Shown here: positions 4,970 through 62,530 of the stretch, one piece after another
How the letters are laid out: every line of letters begins with the position of its first letter
Position numbering within the stretch: the first letter of the stretch is position 1
Source of the DNA: Hoplostethus atlanticus
Lineage: Eukaryota > Chordata > Actinopteri > Trachichthyiformes > Trachichthyidae
DNA: 64,000 bases
Direction of reading: 5' to 3'
Assembly: GCA_034670405.1 (NCBI GenBank)
Contig: JAXDDX010000173.1
Location: 186,001 to 250,000, forward strand
Translations under genes and position numbers: made by a program
The notes under the pieces: generated by a model
Told to the model about the DNA's origin: nothing
Seen by the model: only the letters and a program-made list of their open reading frames with translations
Database searches by the model: none

Positions 4970-5165
4970 GCAACAGGCAAGCGAGAAACGCCAGAGCTCT
5001 GGAAAAAATATTTGTCAAAAATGTATCAATTTGTCAAAAAATTGAACATGGACGTTTATTGAAATGTTTTTCAATGTTGGAACGTTTGTGGGACTGCAAC
5101 CTCATACTGGTTAGCTTCACTGGACGCCTGCAGTCATTTTAGAGACCAATTTTACCTCTTTTTTT
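4970..5165 (+). repeat. Dispersed repeat, copy A (pair with 8361-8512)
   Basis: caggcaagcgagaaacgcc, gagctctgga, catggacgtttat and actcatactggttag occur in the same order here and at 8361-8512, with indels between them. Family unknown. Confidence 0.7.
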
Positions 5166-6567: not shown

Positions 6568-6642
6568 CTGTTCCATGATGTCTTTAACTTTGTCTTGTTC
6601 ACAGTCCAGGACAATGCGTCGCTCCTTGCGGATCTCCAGGTC
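6568..6642 (-). CDS. gria2: gria2 coding exon 4b (remaining 75 nt of the classical 197-nt exon)
   Basis: Twenty-five codons read DLEIRKERRIVLDCEQDKVK then DIMEQ, matching GluA2 DLELKKERR..LDCE.DKV.DI. The acceptor is tattttAG (6644-6643). The 3' boundary CAG|GTTACT falls exactly where the classical exon ends before VITIGKHVKG. The donor (GTTACT) is weaker than its neighbours. No open reading frame beginning with ATG covers the segment, so it is easily missed in an ORF scan. The next exon, a 54-nt block for VITIG..KGYHYI, was searched for by eye in 1-6567 and not found, so it must lie left of the window. Confidence 0.92.
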
Positions 6643-7188
6643 CTAAAATATAGAAAGGGGAAAACTTGGTATAAAATAATAAAAAATAATGAAACATCTG
6701 GTCAGGTAATTAAAGAAAACAATACAACATCTCCCCTAAGAACAAAACAACTCCTAATGGATACCTTTGTCAAACCATGGCATAAATGACTGCACTCTGT
6801 ATTGCCTCTGACTAACACATAGCCCTTCAGCATGGGTTGGAAAATTATATGATCTAAAATAATTGTATTAATGACAATGTGAGGAAGCTACATTCCTGGT
6901 AGTCATATGTTACTTCCAAAAAGCTACTGTGGTATGTAACTTTGCCAGTCCCTGCAATGTAAGGTAGGCTGAAAAAAACACTAAAGAAGAATTCAGCAAG
7001 ATAAGCATGCACAATATTTTGCAAAATCTGTTTGAGACAAGAGAAACAATTATTTTTTAATGTGGCTTCCTTGTTATAGACATTTAACAACCATCTTCCA
7101 TACACCCACCACACACATAAATCAAGTAAATTTACCCAAGAAGGATGTAGTATCAAGGTATTACCAACACCTAAATAAGATACTCAAT

Positions 7189-8285
7189 GGGCCTCATTCA
7201 CCAATGTTTTCGTCAATTATTTGTAAATGTGTCGTATTTGTGCGCGTACTAAAACACGAACGTGGGATTCATGAAACGTGCGGGAAACCTCGATTTGTTC
7301 GTAAAACAGGTGTATATTTGATGAATGCCAATCGCTCAGAAATTGGATGCGCATGCCTGTTGAAGCCGATTTGCATAGGTAAAAGCCCTGTTCAACACCA
7401 TAAAAGGCATACAGACTGAAGGGTCGTGTGCAAGTAAATCAGGGAAAAAGAAGGAAAAGAGGAACTTGGCGGAGTCCGAAATGGAAGTGTTGCGCGCATG
7501 CTTGTGTGAGAAAAAAACAACAGAGTTTTCAAAAGCATCAGCAGCGGAGTCACAAGAACTGATAAAAGTAAAGCATGGTAAGAAATTATTAACGCTGTTA
7601 ATTCTGTTTCACCAAAAACACACACCGTTGCTGAGGTAAAAAAAAGAAACAGTTTCACATGAAACTAGATTGCAAAAAAGTATAAGGAGAAGTAGACGTA
7701 TTATCAGCCAAAGGAGGACAGCAGCGCACTGTGGCGCTATCCGACAATTAATGCAAATTGGATTATTGCATTTTAATTTTTACTCAAATAACGCATACAT
7801 ATGTGGAAAATTATAATGCTATTATGGAATTGCATTTTCATTTTCAAGTTTACATTATCATTTTAATTAAGTCCCTTATGGGCTTCCATAGGTAGGACTA
7901 TGTAATTGTATTTGTAAGGCGTCCAGTCCATGTGATCAACCCATTACAAGTTTGGTTAATCTTGCGTTGTTATGATTGTGGACAGTTGAGGACAGCAAAT
8001 ACGCCATTTCAGCCTATTAGGTCTTTTTTTCTACAAGGCCACTGAAACATCTTGTTGTTGTTGAGGTTTGGCACTAATGTAATGGATTTTTCATAAAGAA
8101 TAAGTTCTAAGAGCCTTCCCGCATGTTTCCAAACACACAAACACATTTCCACATGTTTCCAAGCACACGTAGGATTTGATCGTACCAAACAAACAAATTC
8201 AGATACGAACAAAATGATCCGACTATGTTTGTAGAAACGTTCGTACTAATGTTGTCATCGTACGCACGTTTCGTGAATGAGGCCC
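7189..8285 (+). mobile_element. Harbinger-like element with decayed Myb/SANT-like ORF, inside the extra gria2 intron
   Basis: The ends gggcctcattcac (7189) and gtgaatgaggccc (to 8285) form a 13-bp inverted repeat, flanked by the trinucleotide aat on both sides. The interior near 7450-7640 encodes pieces such as AESEMEVLRACL in one frame and EIINAVNSVSPKTHTVAEVK in another. These resemble the Myb/SANT-like protein of PIF/Harbinger elements (W.KV..AVNAV....RT..EVKKKW). Frameshifts and stops show decay. It lies wholly within the 2.4-kb intron 6643-9028. Related copies are at 1145 and 57775. Confidence 0.75.
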
Positions 8286-8360
8286 AATGTGTGTACATGT
8301 CTGCATTCAGATAAACACATGGTCATGCTACATGGTCCCATGGCACATTTTAGCTAACCA

Positions 8361-8512
8361 CAGGCAAGCGAGAAACGCCGGAGCTCTGGACAAATGATTT
8401 GACTGGACATGGACGTTTATCGTCATTTTTTCCAACGTTGGAATGTTTGAGGGACAAACTCATACTGGTTAGATCCATTGAAACCCTGCCATCATTTAGA
8501 GACGAATTTTAA
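8361..8512 (+). repeat. Dispersed repeat, copy B (pair with 4970-5165)
   Basis: This is the same ordered blocks as copy A, with about 10 percent difference and two indels. It lies immediately right of the Harbinger-like element. Confidence 0.7.
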
Positions 8513-9028
8513 TTTCTGGGCATTTATTGTTAAATAGGTGTATATTATAACATGCAAAATAAGGTTATTTTTCATTTTGTTGTGACTTTAACAACAAGAC
8601 AGTGATGGTTAGCTTACCAGATACTATGTTTAGCTAGCTAACAAGCTGACATTATCTAAAAACAATATCAGATGTATCAGTGATGAAATAATTAGTTCCC
8701 AGTCAAGAACAGCACAGACATTAACCATGTCTATTCATTTCTATTGAGATGACCAAGTTGTATGTTTCAAAACATAATCACCTGTTCAAAGCCTCTGTTG
8801 CACAATAGCTGAGGACCTCCTGCCAGAGGGTGAGTTACATCACCTGAAAGCCTTCCACAGCGCTGTCATCATTCATATTTTACAAAATTATTGCATCTTT
8901 GTGTATGTGTGTTTTTGTGTTTTGTGTGTCGACATACTGCCCTTGTATTTCCTCTTGTTTGTAATACCTTACATGGGTTTTTAAATGAAAGCCTGTATGT
9001 GTATGATGTGCATAGAATGTGTGTGTAC

Positions 9029-9150
9029 CTGAAATAGAGAGCGGTAGGCTTCATCCTTCCTCTCGTCTTTCAGGTTTCCTACATTTATTGCTGTGACAAC
9101 CCATTTCTTCTCTGCTGCTGTGTCCAGAATCACCTGAAGAGTGGACAGAC
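9029..9150 (-). CDS. gria2: gria2 coding exon 4a (first 122 nt of the classical 197-nt exon)
   Basis: This exon encodes (G)[16 protein letters not shown], then [20 protein letters not shown] and SLFQ, continuing the amino-terminal domain after DSDRG. The acceptor is gtgtgtgtAG at 9152-9151. The donor lies between CAG (9031-9029) and GTACAC, so the exon ends in phase 0. In mammalian GRIA genes, as I recall them, this sequence continues without interruption into DLELKKERR to make a 197-nt exon. Here it stops after SLFQ and resumes at 6642. The 122 nt plus the 75 nt of the next segment equal 197 exactly, which supports both splice choices. Confidence 0.93.
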
Positions 9151-9432: not shown

Positions 9433-9672
9433 CTCTATCACTATCATATAGATAGGCAAATTTCTCCCATTTGTAGTACTCCACTAAGGACACCAGGGGG
9501 CCTTTGATGTCTGGCCTCATCTGAAGAACAAACTGATTCATTCCTTCTGCTGGGAATGAGGGCGTGATGAAGGAGACATGCAGTGTTTCACAGAAAGATG
9601 TGATGGTGTTGACCGACTTCTTGTCATAGAAACCAAAAATGGCGTAGACACCTCGGGAGAACTGGGAACAAA
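9433..9672 (-). CDS. gria2: gria2 coding exon 3 (amino-terminal domain)
   Basis: The 240-nt exon, the length I recall for vertebrate GRIA exon 3, encodes [20 protein letters not shown], then [19 protein letters not shown] and an end at [28 protein letters not shown] is diagnostic of GluA2. The Cys of CSQF is, from family knowledge, one half of the conserved amino-terminal-domain disulfide; its partner lies beyond this window. The acceptor follows a ctctctccccAG tract (9674-9673) and the donor is GTAATA at 9432. A (GACA)n microsatellite lies just upstream of the acceptor and supplies part of its pyrimidine tract on the coding strand. The intron to the next exon is only 282 bp. Confidence 0.96.
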
Positions 9673-29440: not shown

Positions 29441-31165
<1,725 letters not shown>

Positions 31166-40698: not shown

Positions 40699-42442
40699 AG
40701 GTCCCATATTATGGAAAACGGTTTATTCCTGGTGCTTATACATGTTCCACAGGAAATTACTTCCCTAAGCAGCTGAGAAAATTTGAAATCTGGAAGTCAA
40801 CCCGTTTTTCTGTATTTTCCTTTTTCCCAAAACGGTGCCAAAGATAGGAGAGAAACAGCCCGTTTCAGAAAATGGTTCCTTTGGACGTCATAAGGTACAA
40901 ATCCAGCCCCTCTCAGAGCATGCCCACGCCCAGGTGAACAACCAATCCCATTTACGTCGTCGCAAAATGCACGGCAGTGCCGCAAGCCGTTGCTTATGGT
41001 GCATTCCATTGTACTCGGAAATCGATAATTCCGAGTCGGTATTCCTAACTTCCAATCTAAATGTGTTCCAGTGCATCTGCTTGGGAAAACATAATCGCCG
41101 CAGCAAACTCATGTTTGTATGGTAAGTCTCAGAATGTTACAAGCATCTAAACTCAACATTAACTACTACAGCGCCATTAGTGAAGAGAATCGGCGCATAT
41201 CACATTCGGACGCCGTTTTTTCCGAGTACACTGGAATGCACCATTACTTTGCTACGAGTGAAGCTAAAACAACATATCTACGGAGATATATCAACTCTCC
41301 AGTTATTATTTTGTAGGATGCAGGGAGCAACATAGATCCCTGCACAGTCTCCCAACACGCGAAAATGCCAGGACAGAGTGGATTAATTTTATTTTTAACG
41401 GCAACGGCTACAGTTTTTTCTGTGTGTGATGATCAGTCCTCAGACTGCTTGAGCAACGGCAGGATTATCATCTAAATTGAAGCTTAAAGATGGAGCAATT
41501 CATACGGTACGTGACCCATCTGCAAAATTGGAATCTGTAAGTGTCACCATGTTTTGATTTAATTTACCAAATTAGTCTGGTTAGTATATTCACTGCTGGT
41601 TAGCTAACGAGCTAGCGGGGCTAGCCACGGGCTTGTTGGGCGTGGAAGAAGTAAGAAAACTAAAGCTGGAGTCATTAAAAGTAAAGTAAAGTAAAAGTAA
41701 AGTTATTGGTTGGAGTCAGGACTCATCTTAAAGTTATTTGTTGGGACCAGTGTCTGTTTTATAAGTCTGTCGAACGTGTCAGGCTTGGTAAACTTTAGCC
41801 ACCATTAGTACAATCGTGTTTGGTTATTTGGCTGCGCTGTTTGGATGCAAATAGGTTGCATCCAATAATATATTGGTTAACTAGCTCAACAAAATTGTCA
41901 ATCCTAGCTTGTCTGCAAGTTGTATTCAATAAGCTTATGGACATGAGCCATAAATAGACCGGCTACAGCAGAGAGTGTCGCTCACACATCCACATCCACA
42001 AACACAAGGCACGAAAGTACTATATTACACAGAATTGTTATCAGTGAGAAACTAAGTGGAACCGCTTCAGCTGCCTCTTCCCATTCTGGGTCAGACTCCG
42101 TCTCAAACATGTACGGTCTCAGTGTTGGTTCTGGAGCGGCCGCCATGGTTATGGTAGATTTCTGCATCAAGCTTATTTGTTTACCTTGAGCAGCATGGGC
42201 GCTCTGCTCTCTGCCTCCGCCAGGCCATTGCGTGTAGGAGGCGGCCAATCAGAGCAGTGCTCATTACATACAACCTCCACGCCCTCAAAACAGCCTGTTC
42301 TTTACAATGGAGAAAATGAGAGACTGAAACACACACCACAGAAGCTGGTTTTAGGATTTTTTTTTATATAGACTTCACAAACGTCTTGTAAAGACCCCCA
42401 GGAACAGTTTAAATAGCCCAAAATGAGTACAATACCCCTCCT
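40699..42442 (+). mobile_element. Kolobok-like (TTAA-target) element with THAP-exon remnant
   Basis: TTAA flanks both ends (40695-40698, 42443-42446) and the element starts aggtccc and ends ctcct. Around 41315-41520 decayed coding sequence reads HRSLHSLPT, then WINFIFNGNGYSFFCVC and LKDGAIHTVRDPSAKLES across frames, the pattern of a THAP DNA-binding domain as found in Kolobok transposases. A second open piece on the minus strand (about 42000-42145) begins MAAAPEPTLRPYMFETESDP. No DDE region is present, so it is non-autonomous. A partial inverted copy is at 48192-48834. Confidence 0.7.
40997..41243. mobile_element. 247-bp MITE with TTA target duplication, nested in the Kolobok-like element
   Basis: The ends tggtgcattccattgtactc and gagtacactggaatgcacca are inverted repeats with one mismatch, flanked by tta on both sides (40994-40996, 41244-41246). 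TWA-type targets are typical of PIF/Harbinger MITEs. A related fragment is at 2241-2680. Confidence 0.8.
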
Positions 42443-42654
42443 TTAAATTTCATTCTAAGTGGTATTAAAAAGGTCTTAAAAAGTCTTAAATTTAACTTTG
42501 AGAACCCTGGGGGTACCCTGCCTCGGGTCTCTGATCGCCTACTGGATTCGGCTGATATAAATAGTTCCAATCCTTTCGGGGCGTAACAGGGAATACGGTT
42601 TATGAATACGGTTTATGGCAGCTTTACCCTGGCGGTTATTCTCCACTGTCGAGC

Positions 42655-47956: not shown

Positions 47957-48187
47957 TAGTGCTGCACGATTTGGTGAAAAAGTCATATTGCGATTATTGT
48001 GGACAATATTGCGATTGCGATATAATAAACAAATGGTATCATGAGTCTACTTGCTTGGTTATCAAGGAAAAATGCAAAGATTACTGATAATTTTGAAATG
48101 TGTATTTCTCAACTCAAACATACAAACTTAAACTAGCATAAAAAATACAAAAACAAAAAAATGTGTACAGTACTGTTTTCAAAATAA
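47957..48187 (-). mobile_element. 'tgctgcacgat' MITE fragment (copy of 13923)
   Basis: It starts tagtgctgcacgattt and matches 14510-14655 in reverse complement. It is cut off at TTAA (48188-48191) by the Kolobok-like fragment; the other copy reads on from that TTAA into tattttacaaaat. Confidence 0.7.
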
Positions 48188-48191
48188 CTTA

Positions 48192-48834
48192 AAGGGGGGG
48201 TATTGTACTCATTTTGGGCTATTTAAACTGTTCCTGGGGGTCTTTACAAGACGTTTGTGAAGTCTATATAAAAAAAAATCCTAAAACCAGCTTCTGTGGT
48301 GTGTGTTTCAGTCTCTCATTTTCTCCATTGTAAAGAACAGGCTGTTTTGAGGGCGTGGAGGTTGTATGTAATGAGCACTGCTCTGATTGGCCGCCTTACA
48401 CCTCACTCACGACGTGAGGCGGCCAATCAGAGCAGTGCTCATTACATACAACCTACACGCAATGGCCTGGCGGAGGCGGAGAGCAGAGCGCCCATGCTGC
48501 TCAAGGTAAACAAATAAGCTTGATGCAGAAATCTACCATAACCATGGCGGCCGCTCCAGAACCAACACTGAGACCGTACATGTTTGAGCCAGAGTCTGAC
48601 CCAGAATGGGAAGAGGCAGCTGAGGCGGTTCTACTTAGTTTCTCACTGATAACAATTCTGTGTAATATTGTACTTTCGTGCCTTGTGTTTGTGGATGTGG
48701 ATGTGTGAGCGACACTCTCTGCTGTAGCCGGTCTATTTATGGCTCATGTCCATAAGCTTATTGAATACAACTTGCAGACAAGCTAGGATTGACAATTTTG
48801 TTGAGCTAGTTAACCAATATATTATTGGATGCAA
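48192..48834 (-). mobile_element. Partial Kolobok-like element, inverted copy of 41850-42442
   Basis: After TTAA it starts agggggggtattgtactcat and is nearly identical, in reverse complement, to the right third of the 40699 element, including the frame MAAAPEPTLRPYMFEPESDP. It has a small extra palindrome (ggccgccttacacctcactc and complement, 48387-48435). It stops abruptly at the DDE fragment. Confidence 0.75.
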
Positions 48835-49190
48835 CTTATTGGGGAAAGTTCCTGCGGTCGAAAAGGGGCTAAAGAGATCCTGCAACAGTCAGGTATTGCG
48901 CATCTATTAAAACCAGAGATCATGGTAGACAGAGGCTTTCTGGATGACTGCGTGCCATGCAAAATCTATAGGCCTCCATTTCTGTCAGGTGAAGCCCAGA
49001 TGCCTGGAAACTGAGGCCATTGCCCATCTCAGAGTACAGCATCTTATCTGTTCTTTGACACAGTGATCACACTTAAAATGTTTGGAAACATCAACCAGTT
49101 GTATACAGTAGCATGCCTGCTGACTAACTATGAAAACAAACCTCTTGTGAAGGCTTGGGCAACAGAACTACGAGTGTAGGAAACCTCTTA
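48835..49190 (+). mobile_element. C-terminal DDE transposase fragment (THAP/Kolobok or Harbinger type)
   Basis: Across two frames the plus strand reads KPEIMVDRGFLDDCVPCKIY, RPPFLSGEAQMPGNEAIAHL and MFGNINQLYTVACLLTNYEN, then PLVKAWA. (m).DrGF..d.....PPFl...qm...E...ia.lR is the C-terminal signature of DDE_Tnp_4-type transposases. It may belong with the exon remnant at 44520-44868. The catalytic upstream part is missing. Confidence 0.6.
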
Positions 49191-61589: not shown

Positions 61590-62530
61590 GACCACAATGG
61601 CATTACCACTGCATCCACTGCCAGTCAATGCTGTCACGTAAACCGCACATTAAACACCTCCTGTCTTTGTGCAAGGACAAGCACCCTGCCATAACCCCCA
61701 CCATCCCAGCTCCAACAACCCCCACCATCCCAGCTTCAACATCTTCCACCATCCCAGCTCCAACAACTCTCACCATCCCAGCTTAGGGATGGGCAATATG
61801 ACTTCAAATCAATATCACGATTATTTCAAACTTTTACCTCAATTACGATTAATGAACGATTATTGATTAATGAAATTTGTTTTATTTTGAAAATTGACTC
61901 TATGCCGTTCCTGTGTCTGACCTCCTGCCCGACTTGACACATTCGCTCGCGGCCCGCAGAAAAAATAGACCAGACGCCGAAACTATCGAGCTGGCTGCGG
62001 AGCTACCCACCGCAGCGCGGCCGGTCTGAACGGTCAAGACCGGTCTGAGCCCGGCGTTAGTTGGACCGAGCGGAGGCACATGACTGAACACGACGTAGTA
62101 TTTTTTGTAAGGGGACAGTTCATGAAGGCATGCATTGGGGAAAGTATTAACCGAATTAACCGTCATGAGCAAGATTATGACAGTGAGAGGTTCTAAATGT
62201 CAGTTTCGATACATTTTCGGTTAATTGCCCAGCCCCATCCCAGCTCCAACAACTTCCACCATCCCAGCTCCAACAACCACCACCATCCCAGCTCCAACAA
62301 CTCCCACCATCACAGCTCCAACAACTCCTACCATTCCAGCTCCAACAACTCCCACCATCACAGCTCCAACAACCCTCACTGTGCCAACCACCCCAAGTGG
62401 ACAGATGCAAAGGGTCCGTGTGAAGCTAGTACTACAGAAAAAATGTCCCATATGCCAGGTTCTCATGAACAAAAACAATTTAAAAAGGCACATAGAAAGG
62501 AAGCACACAGGCAAATATAAGGACATAACA
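61590..62530 (+). CDS. Possible zinc-finger coding segment with Pro/Thr-rich repeat, interrupted
   Basis: From 61604 the frame reads YHCIHCQSMLSRKPHIKHLL, a Cys2His2-like finger, followed by four 8-residue TIPAPTTP-type units (61690-61782). The same frame resumes at 62237 with about seven more units, then KKCPICQVLMNKNNLKRHIE RKHTG, a second C-x2-C...H-x4-H finger, and KDITASSHL. Between them lies a 454-bp insertion (61783-62236) carrying stops. Upstream start and downstream exons are unknown. It could be an exon of a host gene broken by a transposon, or the remnant of another mobile element. Function is not assigned. Confidence 0.4.
61690..62390 (+). repeat. 24-bp minisatellite (accatcccagctccaacaac), split by an insertion
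   Basis: Units of 24 bp occur about four times at 61690-61782 and about seven times at 62237-62390, encoding TIPAPTTP. The unit length keeps the frame. Minus-strand open frames with CWSWDGG repeats are the complement of this array. Confidence 0.88.
61783..62236. mobile_element. hAT-like MITE inserted in the minisatellite
   Basis: The left end ttagggatgggcaat and right end attgcccagcccc are inverted repeats of a widespread fish type. atcccagc precedes and follows (61775-61782, 62237-62244). As this octamer is also part of the repeat unit, the duplication is suggestive rather than proven. Confidence 0.75.

Follow-up and report, generated by a model that had tools for sequence, protein, structure and literature searches.

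An additional intron in exon 4 of a teleost gria2 gene, probably gained once within the gria2a lineage

Results

The gria2a locus and its divided exon 4

The window, the whole stretch of 64,000 nucleotides of Hoplostethus atlanticus DNA that was analysed, includes, on its minus strand, the 5' half of a gria2 gene, which encodes GluA2. This gene is referred to here as gria2a and its sister copy as gria2b; these are labels only, and are independent of the published a/b names. Exons 2-13, followed through the window and the neighbouring stretches of contig C173, form a single open frame with GT-AG ends at all introns, which rules out a chance arrangement. The best match of the gene was GluA2, and the frame was open across the N-terminal domain, the ligand-binding domain and the channel. 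Exon 1 was looked for within the window and was not found; exon 5 lies beyond the window, 23 kb past exon 4b. The features surrounding exon 4 are as follows.

29488..29628, minus strand: gria2a exon 2, 141 nt, located by tblastn against rat GluA2, with AG/GT bounds
9433..9672, minus strand: gria2a exon 3, 240 nt, with AG/GT bounds and an open frame
9029..9150, minus strand: exon 4a, 122 nt from the 5' side of classical exon 4, ending SLFQ, CAG|gtacac
6643..9028, minus strand: extra intron, 2386 bp, GT-AG, phase 0, missing from gria2b and four other AMPA genes
6568..6642, minus strand: exon 4b, 75 nt from the 3' side of classical exon 4, beginning DLE

Exon 4 of the mammalian GRIA genes is one undivided 197-nt exon. 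Direct reading of the letters of the minus strand placed the classical 197-nt exon in two pieces of 122 nt and 75 nt, in the order tgtgtgtag, 9150-9029 (122 nt), gtacac ... tctatattttag, 6642-6568 (75 nt), gttact. Once joined, exons 4a and 4b contain no stop, the codon of the first G beginning with the final base of exon 3, and reading through the intron gives an in-frame stop after 15 codons. The 145 amino acid protein encoded by exons 3 and 4 together aligned over its full length, with no gaps, to GluA2 in the PDB (best E 5.8e-79). The split lies in the N-terminal domain, at the boundary between the Gln and Asp codons of SLFQ|DLE and in a CAG|G context. A first-pass annotation of this DNA had placed the two parts at 9029-9150 and 6568-6642, in phase 0 and summing to 197 nt, which the direct reading and the open joined frame bear out to the base, and the CAG|G proto-splice site that it named was read directly in the same letters. 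The extra intron that it placed in exon 4 is confirmed, and is one of at least three in gria2a. On a frequency table the donor of exon 4a (CAG|gtacac) was weak at 0.61 and that of exon 4b scored 0.57, so 4a is no weaker. The GT-AG ends and the frame-preserving junction suggest an ordinary phase 0 intron, which would be spliced out leaving the protein unchanged, and the effect of the split on the receptor itself is probably silent.

A second gria2 copy in the same genome

The sister copy, gria2b, is located on contig C32 and has exon 4 as a single 197-nt AG..GT block. The two proteins are 92.4% identical over 683 codons, and two gria2 copies at this identity within one genome are consistent with a pair derived from the teleost whole-genome duplication. 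The dN between them was 0.06 and 72% of synonymous sites differed, which argues that gria2a is under purifying selection; with a rat sequence as the reference, 26 lineage-specific changes were assigned to gria2a and eight to gria2b. It is scarcely conceivable that the divided exon belongs to a pseudogene or is an assembly artefact, as the frame of exons 2-13 is open and every intron is GT-AG, dN is well under the synonymous divergence and the identical split was found in 27 other fragments (below).

Exon 16 of gria2a was considered as another divided exon and was dropped, because the break after KKMK coincides with the position at which alternative C-termini are spliced in mammals. The start of the intron after exon 13 is nearly identical in the two copies (GTGGGTGGA, two bases, AGTATAACAATG; C173:130830-130856 and C32:1819537-1819560), as we would expect of the R/G editing hairpin. 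At the Q/R site an arginine (FMRQG) is encoded in both copies, at C173:144451-144605 (outside the window) and C32:1816448-1816815, so neither would need RNA editing at this position. Zebrafish gria2-alpha is reported to be edited (PMC4018279).

Exon 4 in other AMPA receptor genes and in database fragments

The genome (633 Mb, 1161 contigs) was searched with the exon 4 sequences of gria2a, gria4 and gria1. Searches with exons 10 and 11 gave a total of eight AMPA genes, and exon 4 was located for six of these, being undivided in five and split in gria2a alone. Subunit labels were assigned from matches to known peptides and from reading. The undivided copies, which the gria4 and gria1 queries found again, are:

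C32: exon 4 of gria2b
C21: exon 4 of gria1 and of a gria3
C18: exon 4 of a gria3
C15: exon 4 of gria4

The exon 4 sequences of the AMPA genes on contigs C3 and C84 were not found with the three queries. At the split position gria2b reads CTGTTCCAAGAC, with CAA where gria2a has CAG. No relative turned up when viral contigs and genome contigs were scanned for AMPA exons.

The joined exon 4, a short query that admits only short ORFs, was searched against 5.8 billion predicted proteins and yielded 107 short ORFs, most of them labelled with the source lgn, which we take to denote raw-read assemblies. None of the 107 had exon 3 or exon 5 next to exon 4, and they were therefore read as an exon with the non-coding flank of a genomic contig. 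In 78 the D of the intact exon follows YRSLFQ or YRSVFQ (among them, P0075 and P0103 depart from the alignment later and P0102 at once). A further 27 break after SLFQ or SVFQ, the next residue always being V (GTN), and KWVV, the mark of the gria2a type, was present in all 27. P0104 looks like an intact type with a frameshift, and P0107 has just the 3' half of exon 4; the source contigs of P0107 and P0098 are both 7723 long, and the two may be halves of one exon from the same contig. A crude cut divided the flanks of the 27 split fragments into 21 groups, which is an overcount, one group being a single residue and some being alike when shifted. Fragments that we take to be tetrapod-type gria2 read through the split position in a single open frame, with the coding residues to either side of it and non-coding sequence beyond.

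A profile search matched 413 proteins. Among the 120 matches listed 79 were new, and all 79 were intact (gria4, 31; gria1, 26; gria3, 21; gria2, 1), P0124 and P0184 continuing into exon 5 as spliced predictions. Intact exons rank higher in such a listing, so that it demonstrates the existence of intact forms and is no argument for the absence of split forms.

An exon 4 tree was constructed from 24 rows representing 63 sequences; fragments lacking a complete exon 4a were excluded, including P0025, the second intact KWVV sequence. The KWVV type formed one clade (support 97/94), within which the split rows formed a clade at 88/85, under the support mark of the tool, with the intact KWVV sequence P0001 outside. 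The tree was 66 columns in length (41 for the five split rows besides the window's own) and its bootstrap was unsettled. The presence of the intron on the 24 rows can be accounted for by one change.

These comparisons strongly suggest that the exon 4 intron was gained once in gria2a, between the Gln and Asp codons of SLFQ|DLE, and is common to other fishes. It is missing from the paralogues, that is from the five other AMPA genes for which exon 4 was located, and from the tetrapod-type fragments. The gain would have followed both the separation of gria2a from gria2b and the branching of the P0001 lineage, and preceded the divergence of the fishes that carry the intron; alternatively, within gria2a, P0001 and P0025 may belong to a lineage that lost the intron rather than to one that branched off ahead of its gain. 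A gain in this lineage had been proposed in the first-pass annotation. The derived state holds good, given the absence of the intron from gria2b, four other AMPA genes, tetrapod-type gria2 and the 79 listed fragments and the single change on the tree, but the intron does not look private, as 27 fragments with differing flanks carry the split. Surveys of a few vertebrate genomes are reported to have given losses and no gains (PMC3257199), which would favour an intron ancestral to the AMPA genes and lost everywhere outside this gria2a clade. Such a history is very improbable: separate losses would be needed in the lineage of intact KWVV sequences, in tetrapod-type gria2, in the gria1, gria3 and gria4 types and, within this genome, in gria2b, gria1, two gria3 and gria4.

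Extra introns in exons 10 and 11

Exon 10 of gria2a (64 + 143 = 207 nt) is interrupted within the glycine codon of YEG|Y, with the context AAG|G, by a phase 1 intron of 8524 bp, and exon 11 (216 + 155 = 371 nt) is split at FL|V, with the context CTG|G, by a phase 0 intron of 505 bp. Both exons are undivided in gria2b, at 207 nt and 368 nt respectively. Exon 10 was undivided in all seven other AMPA genes, gria2a alone of the eight having the split. In gria2a and two other genes exon 11 was interrupted at one and the same base (FL|V, phase 0), and it was undivided in five:

C173:144451-145326, gria2a: exon 11 split by a 505-bp intron
C3:15120672-15121439, gria4-like gene: exon 11 split by a 390-bp intron
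C84:394596-394820, gria1-like gene: exon 11 split by a 930-bp intron

The three exon 11 introns have no significant sequence likeness, and the proposal that they are copies of each other was rejected. Identity with the intron of kainate receptors was also rejected, as five loci which we take to be of kainate type have theirs 8 nt further on and in phase 2. From this genome alone, three gains and about four losses are similar in cost. Exon 11 is undivided in all four mammalian AMPA genes, and this tips the balance to repeated gain. The Val-Ser codons following the site are GTCAGC or GTCAGT in each of the five undivided genes and, beyond the intron, GTGAGT in the genes on C3 and C84, coding strings that resemble a 5' splice site; against a ready-made donor, gria2a itself has GTCTCC after its exon 11 intron.

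Two further observations were made in the gria1-like gene of C84. A further break appears to be present in the linker, past the exon 11 split, after ...TSELG (L042 / L053), and a sequence like the exon 9 end with its donor side (LTYVVTAVLVRLETNLRSHR and variants) occurs in repeated copies next to exon 9 of this gene (L056 490-1756).

Composition and origin of the exon 4 intron

Repeats make up more than half of the exon 4 intron, which is arranged, in the direction of transcription, as follows.

8862..9028, minus strand: intron start, 167 bp, no repeat copy among the matches listed
8588..8855, minus strand: interspersed repeat present in high copy number, about 268 bp, with at least 39 further copies that are 76-91% identical (1876 first-look candidates)
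8360..8511, minus strand: repeat common to 4973-5154 of the window, 70% identity over 182 columns
7182..8292, minus strand: DNA transposon-like element with terminal inverted repeats (TIR), genomic copies of both outer parts
6643..7181, minus strand: intron end, 539 bp, single-copy in the genome (self match only, simple repeats skipped)

A 517-bp query from the intron gave 39 other matches among those listed, all starting at base 168 or later (40 of 1876 candidates scored, simple repeats skipped). Copies of the TIR element elsewhere in the genome were 85-89% identical in one part and, for most copies, 74-92% in the other (40 of 1140 candidates scored), and the middle of the element, at about 7747-7890, did not align to other copies. 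A 145-bp insertion in the element was considered here and was dropped, as coordinate-checked copies also have some 70-105 bp unaligned at this place. No repeat was seen to touch either splice site, among the copies listed for the intron start or in the genome search for the last 539 bp. The repeats are internal and the outer ends are without repeat copies, so that the repeats look like later arrivals.

Elsewhere in the window, long inverted repeats at 41850-42449 and 48186-48840, 98-99% complementary and about 6 kb apart, may represent a recent mobile element or the pair of ends of one, and a minisatellite of 24-bp units (CTCCAACAACTCCCACCATCCCAG-like) occupies two blocks at 61662-62413.

The abundance of repeats, the TIR element and the high-copy repeat among them, raises the question of whether the intron was itself a transposon insertion whose ends gave the splice sites (introner-like), a mechanism reported for a notothenioid slc26a2 intron (PMC12357937). 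We regard this as unlikely. Element ends were not found at the splice sites among the matches listed, although old ends could have decayed and an old element may have passed beyond recognition. The first 167 bp are without a copy among the matches listed and the last 539 bp are single-copy; the TIR element, which both starts and stops well within the intron and has best kin 85-89% identical over one part, looks late.

Another possible origin is that a short exon stretch at SLFQ|D was duplicated in tandem and that the 3' splice site came from its second copy; this has a rather better claim and is still doubtful. The last 14 nt of exon 4a and the last 14 nt of the intron match at 10/14 positions. 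The mean was 7.4 for five extra introns (the three of gria2a and the exon 11 introns of the C3 and C84 genes) versus 4.5 for 21 old introns (permutation about 0.0014, in a test picked after the sequences had been seen). Unrelated 3' splice sites, however, matched equally in 2/25 cases for exon 4, 5/25 for exon 10 and 8/25, 17/25 and 1/25 for the exon 11 introns, and the comparison of intron start with exon start gave 4.0 versus 3.0 (permutation 0.12). The likeness may reflect only a site that resembles a splice site, and since 2/25 unrelated ends equal the 10/14 match, duplication is no more than possible.

Ahead of the intron the exon ends in CTCTATTTCAG|G, a sequence similar to that of a 3' splice site. 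The likeliest origin, to which we would give slightly less than an even chance, is that filler or duplicated DNA was inserted beside this exonic stretch, already 3' splice-site-like; transposons would probably have been inserted afterwards, lengthening the intron. We suggest more tentatively that teleost AMPA genes may hold latent splice sites in conserved coding sequence, at which introns would be gained repeatedly. The exon 11 intron would then have arisen independently in three copies at the identical base, Val-Ser (GTNAGY in most copies) being a ready-made 5' splice site and the exon 4 site a ready-made 3' splice site. If true, the coding constraint on a synaptic receptor would determine the places where new introns land.

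Comparison with known systems

Dated cases of intron gain are few, and the origin of vertebrate introns therefore remains an open question. gria2a combines three split exons with an undivided sister copy in the same genome, and its exon 4 also has an intact relative of its own type; it is thus a compact system in which the intron-making mechanism and the predisposition of sites by coding sequence can be tested. The coincidence most worth following is exon 11, one site having been hit in three paralogues. No report of intron gain in AMPA genes was found among the titles and abstract openings of the open-access papers listed, and teleost gains are known elsewhere, so gria2a appears to be a new, well-placed case of a known phenomenon. 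The first-pass annotation had called such gains rare, which is too strong for teleosts, as gains are already in print for muscarinic, slc26a1/2 and melanocortin receptor genes.

Intron turnover in teleosts is described as high, and teleost-specific gains are reported in the muscarinic genes CHRM2b, 3b, 4a and 4b (PMC6298421). These are, like gria2a, duplicated neurotransmitter receptor genes of teleosts; they differ in being GPCR genes earlier reported as intronless, whereas gria2a is an intron-rich ion-channel gene in which an exon was further split. In slc26a1 and slc26a2, gains are described in Eurypterygii and notothenioids (PMC12357937), and the likeness lies in multiple gains within one gene of a teleost clade and in same-site insertion in different family members. 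Intron 3 of notothenioid slc26a2 is unlike the gria2a intron in that the ends of the element contain both splice sites, the repeats of gria2a being internal. The introns of MC2R and MC5R were inserted at MAG|R proto-splice sites in ray-finned fishes only (PMC3151243), and share with the gria2a intron the proto-splice context and the restriction to ray-finned fishes; they belong to another gene family and their gain is linked to genome compaction, whereas the gria2a intron is 2.4 kb long and rich in repeats.
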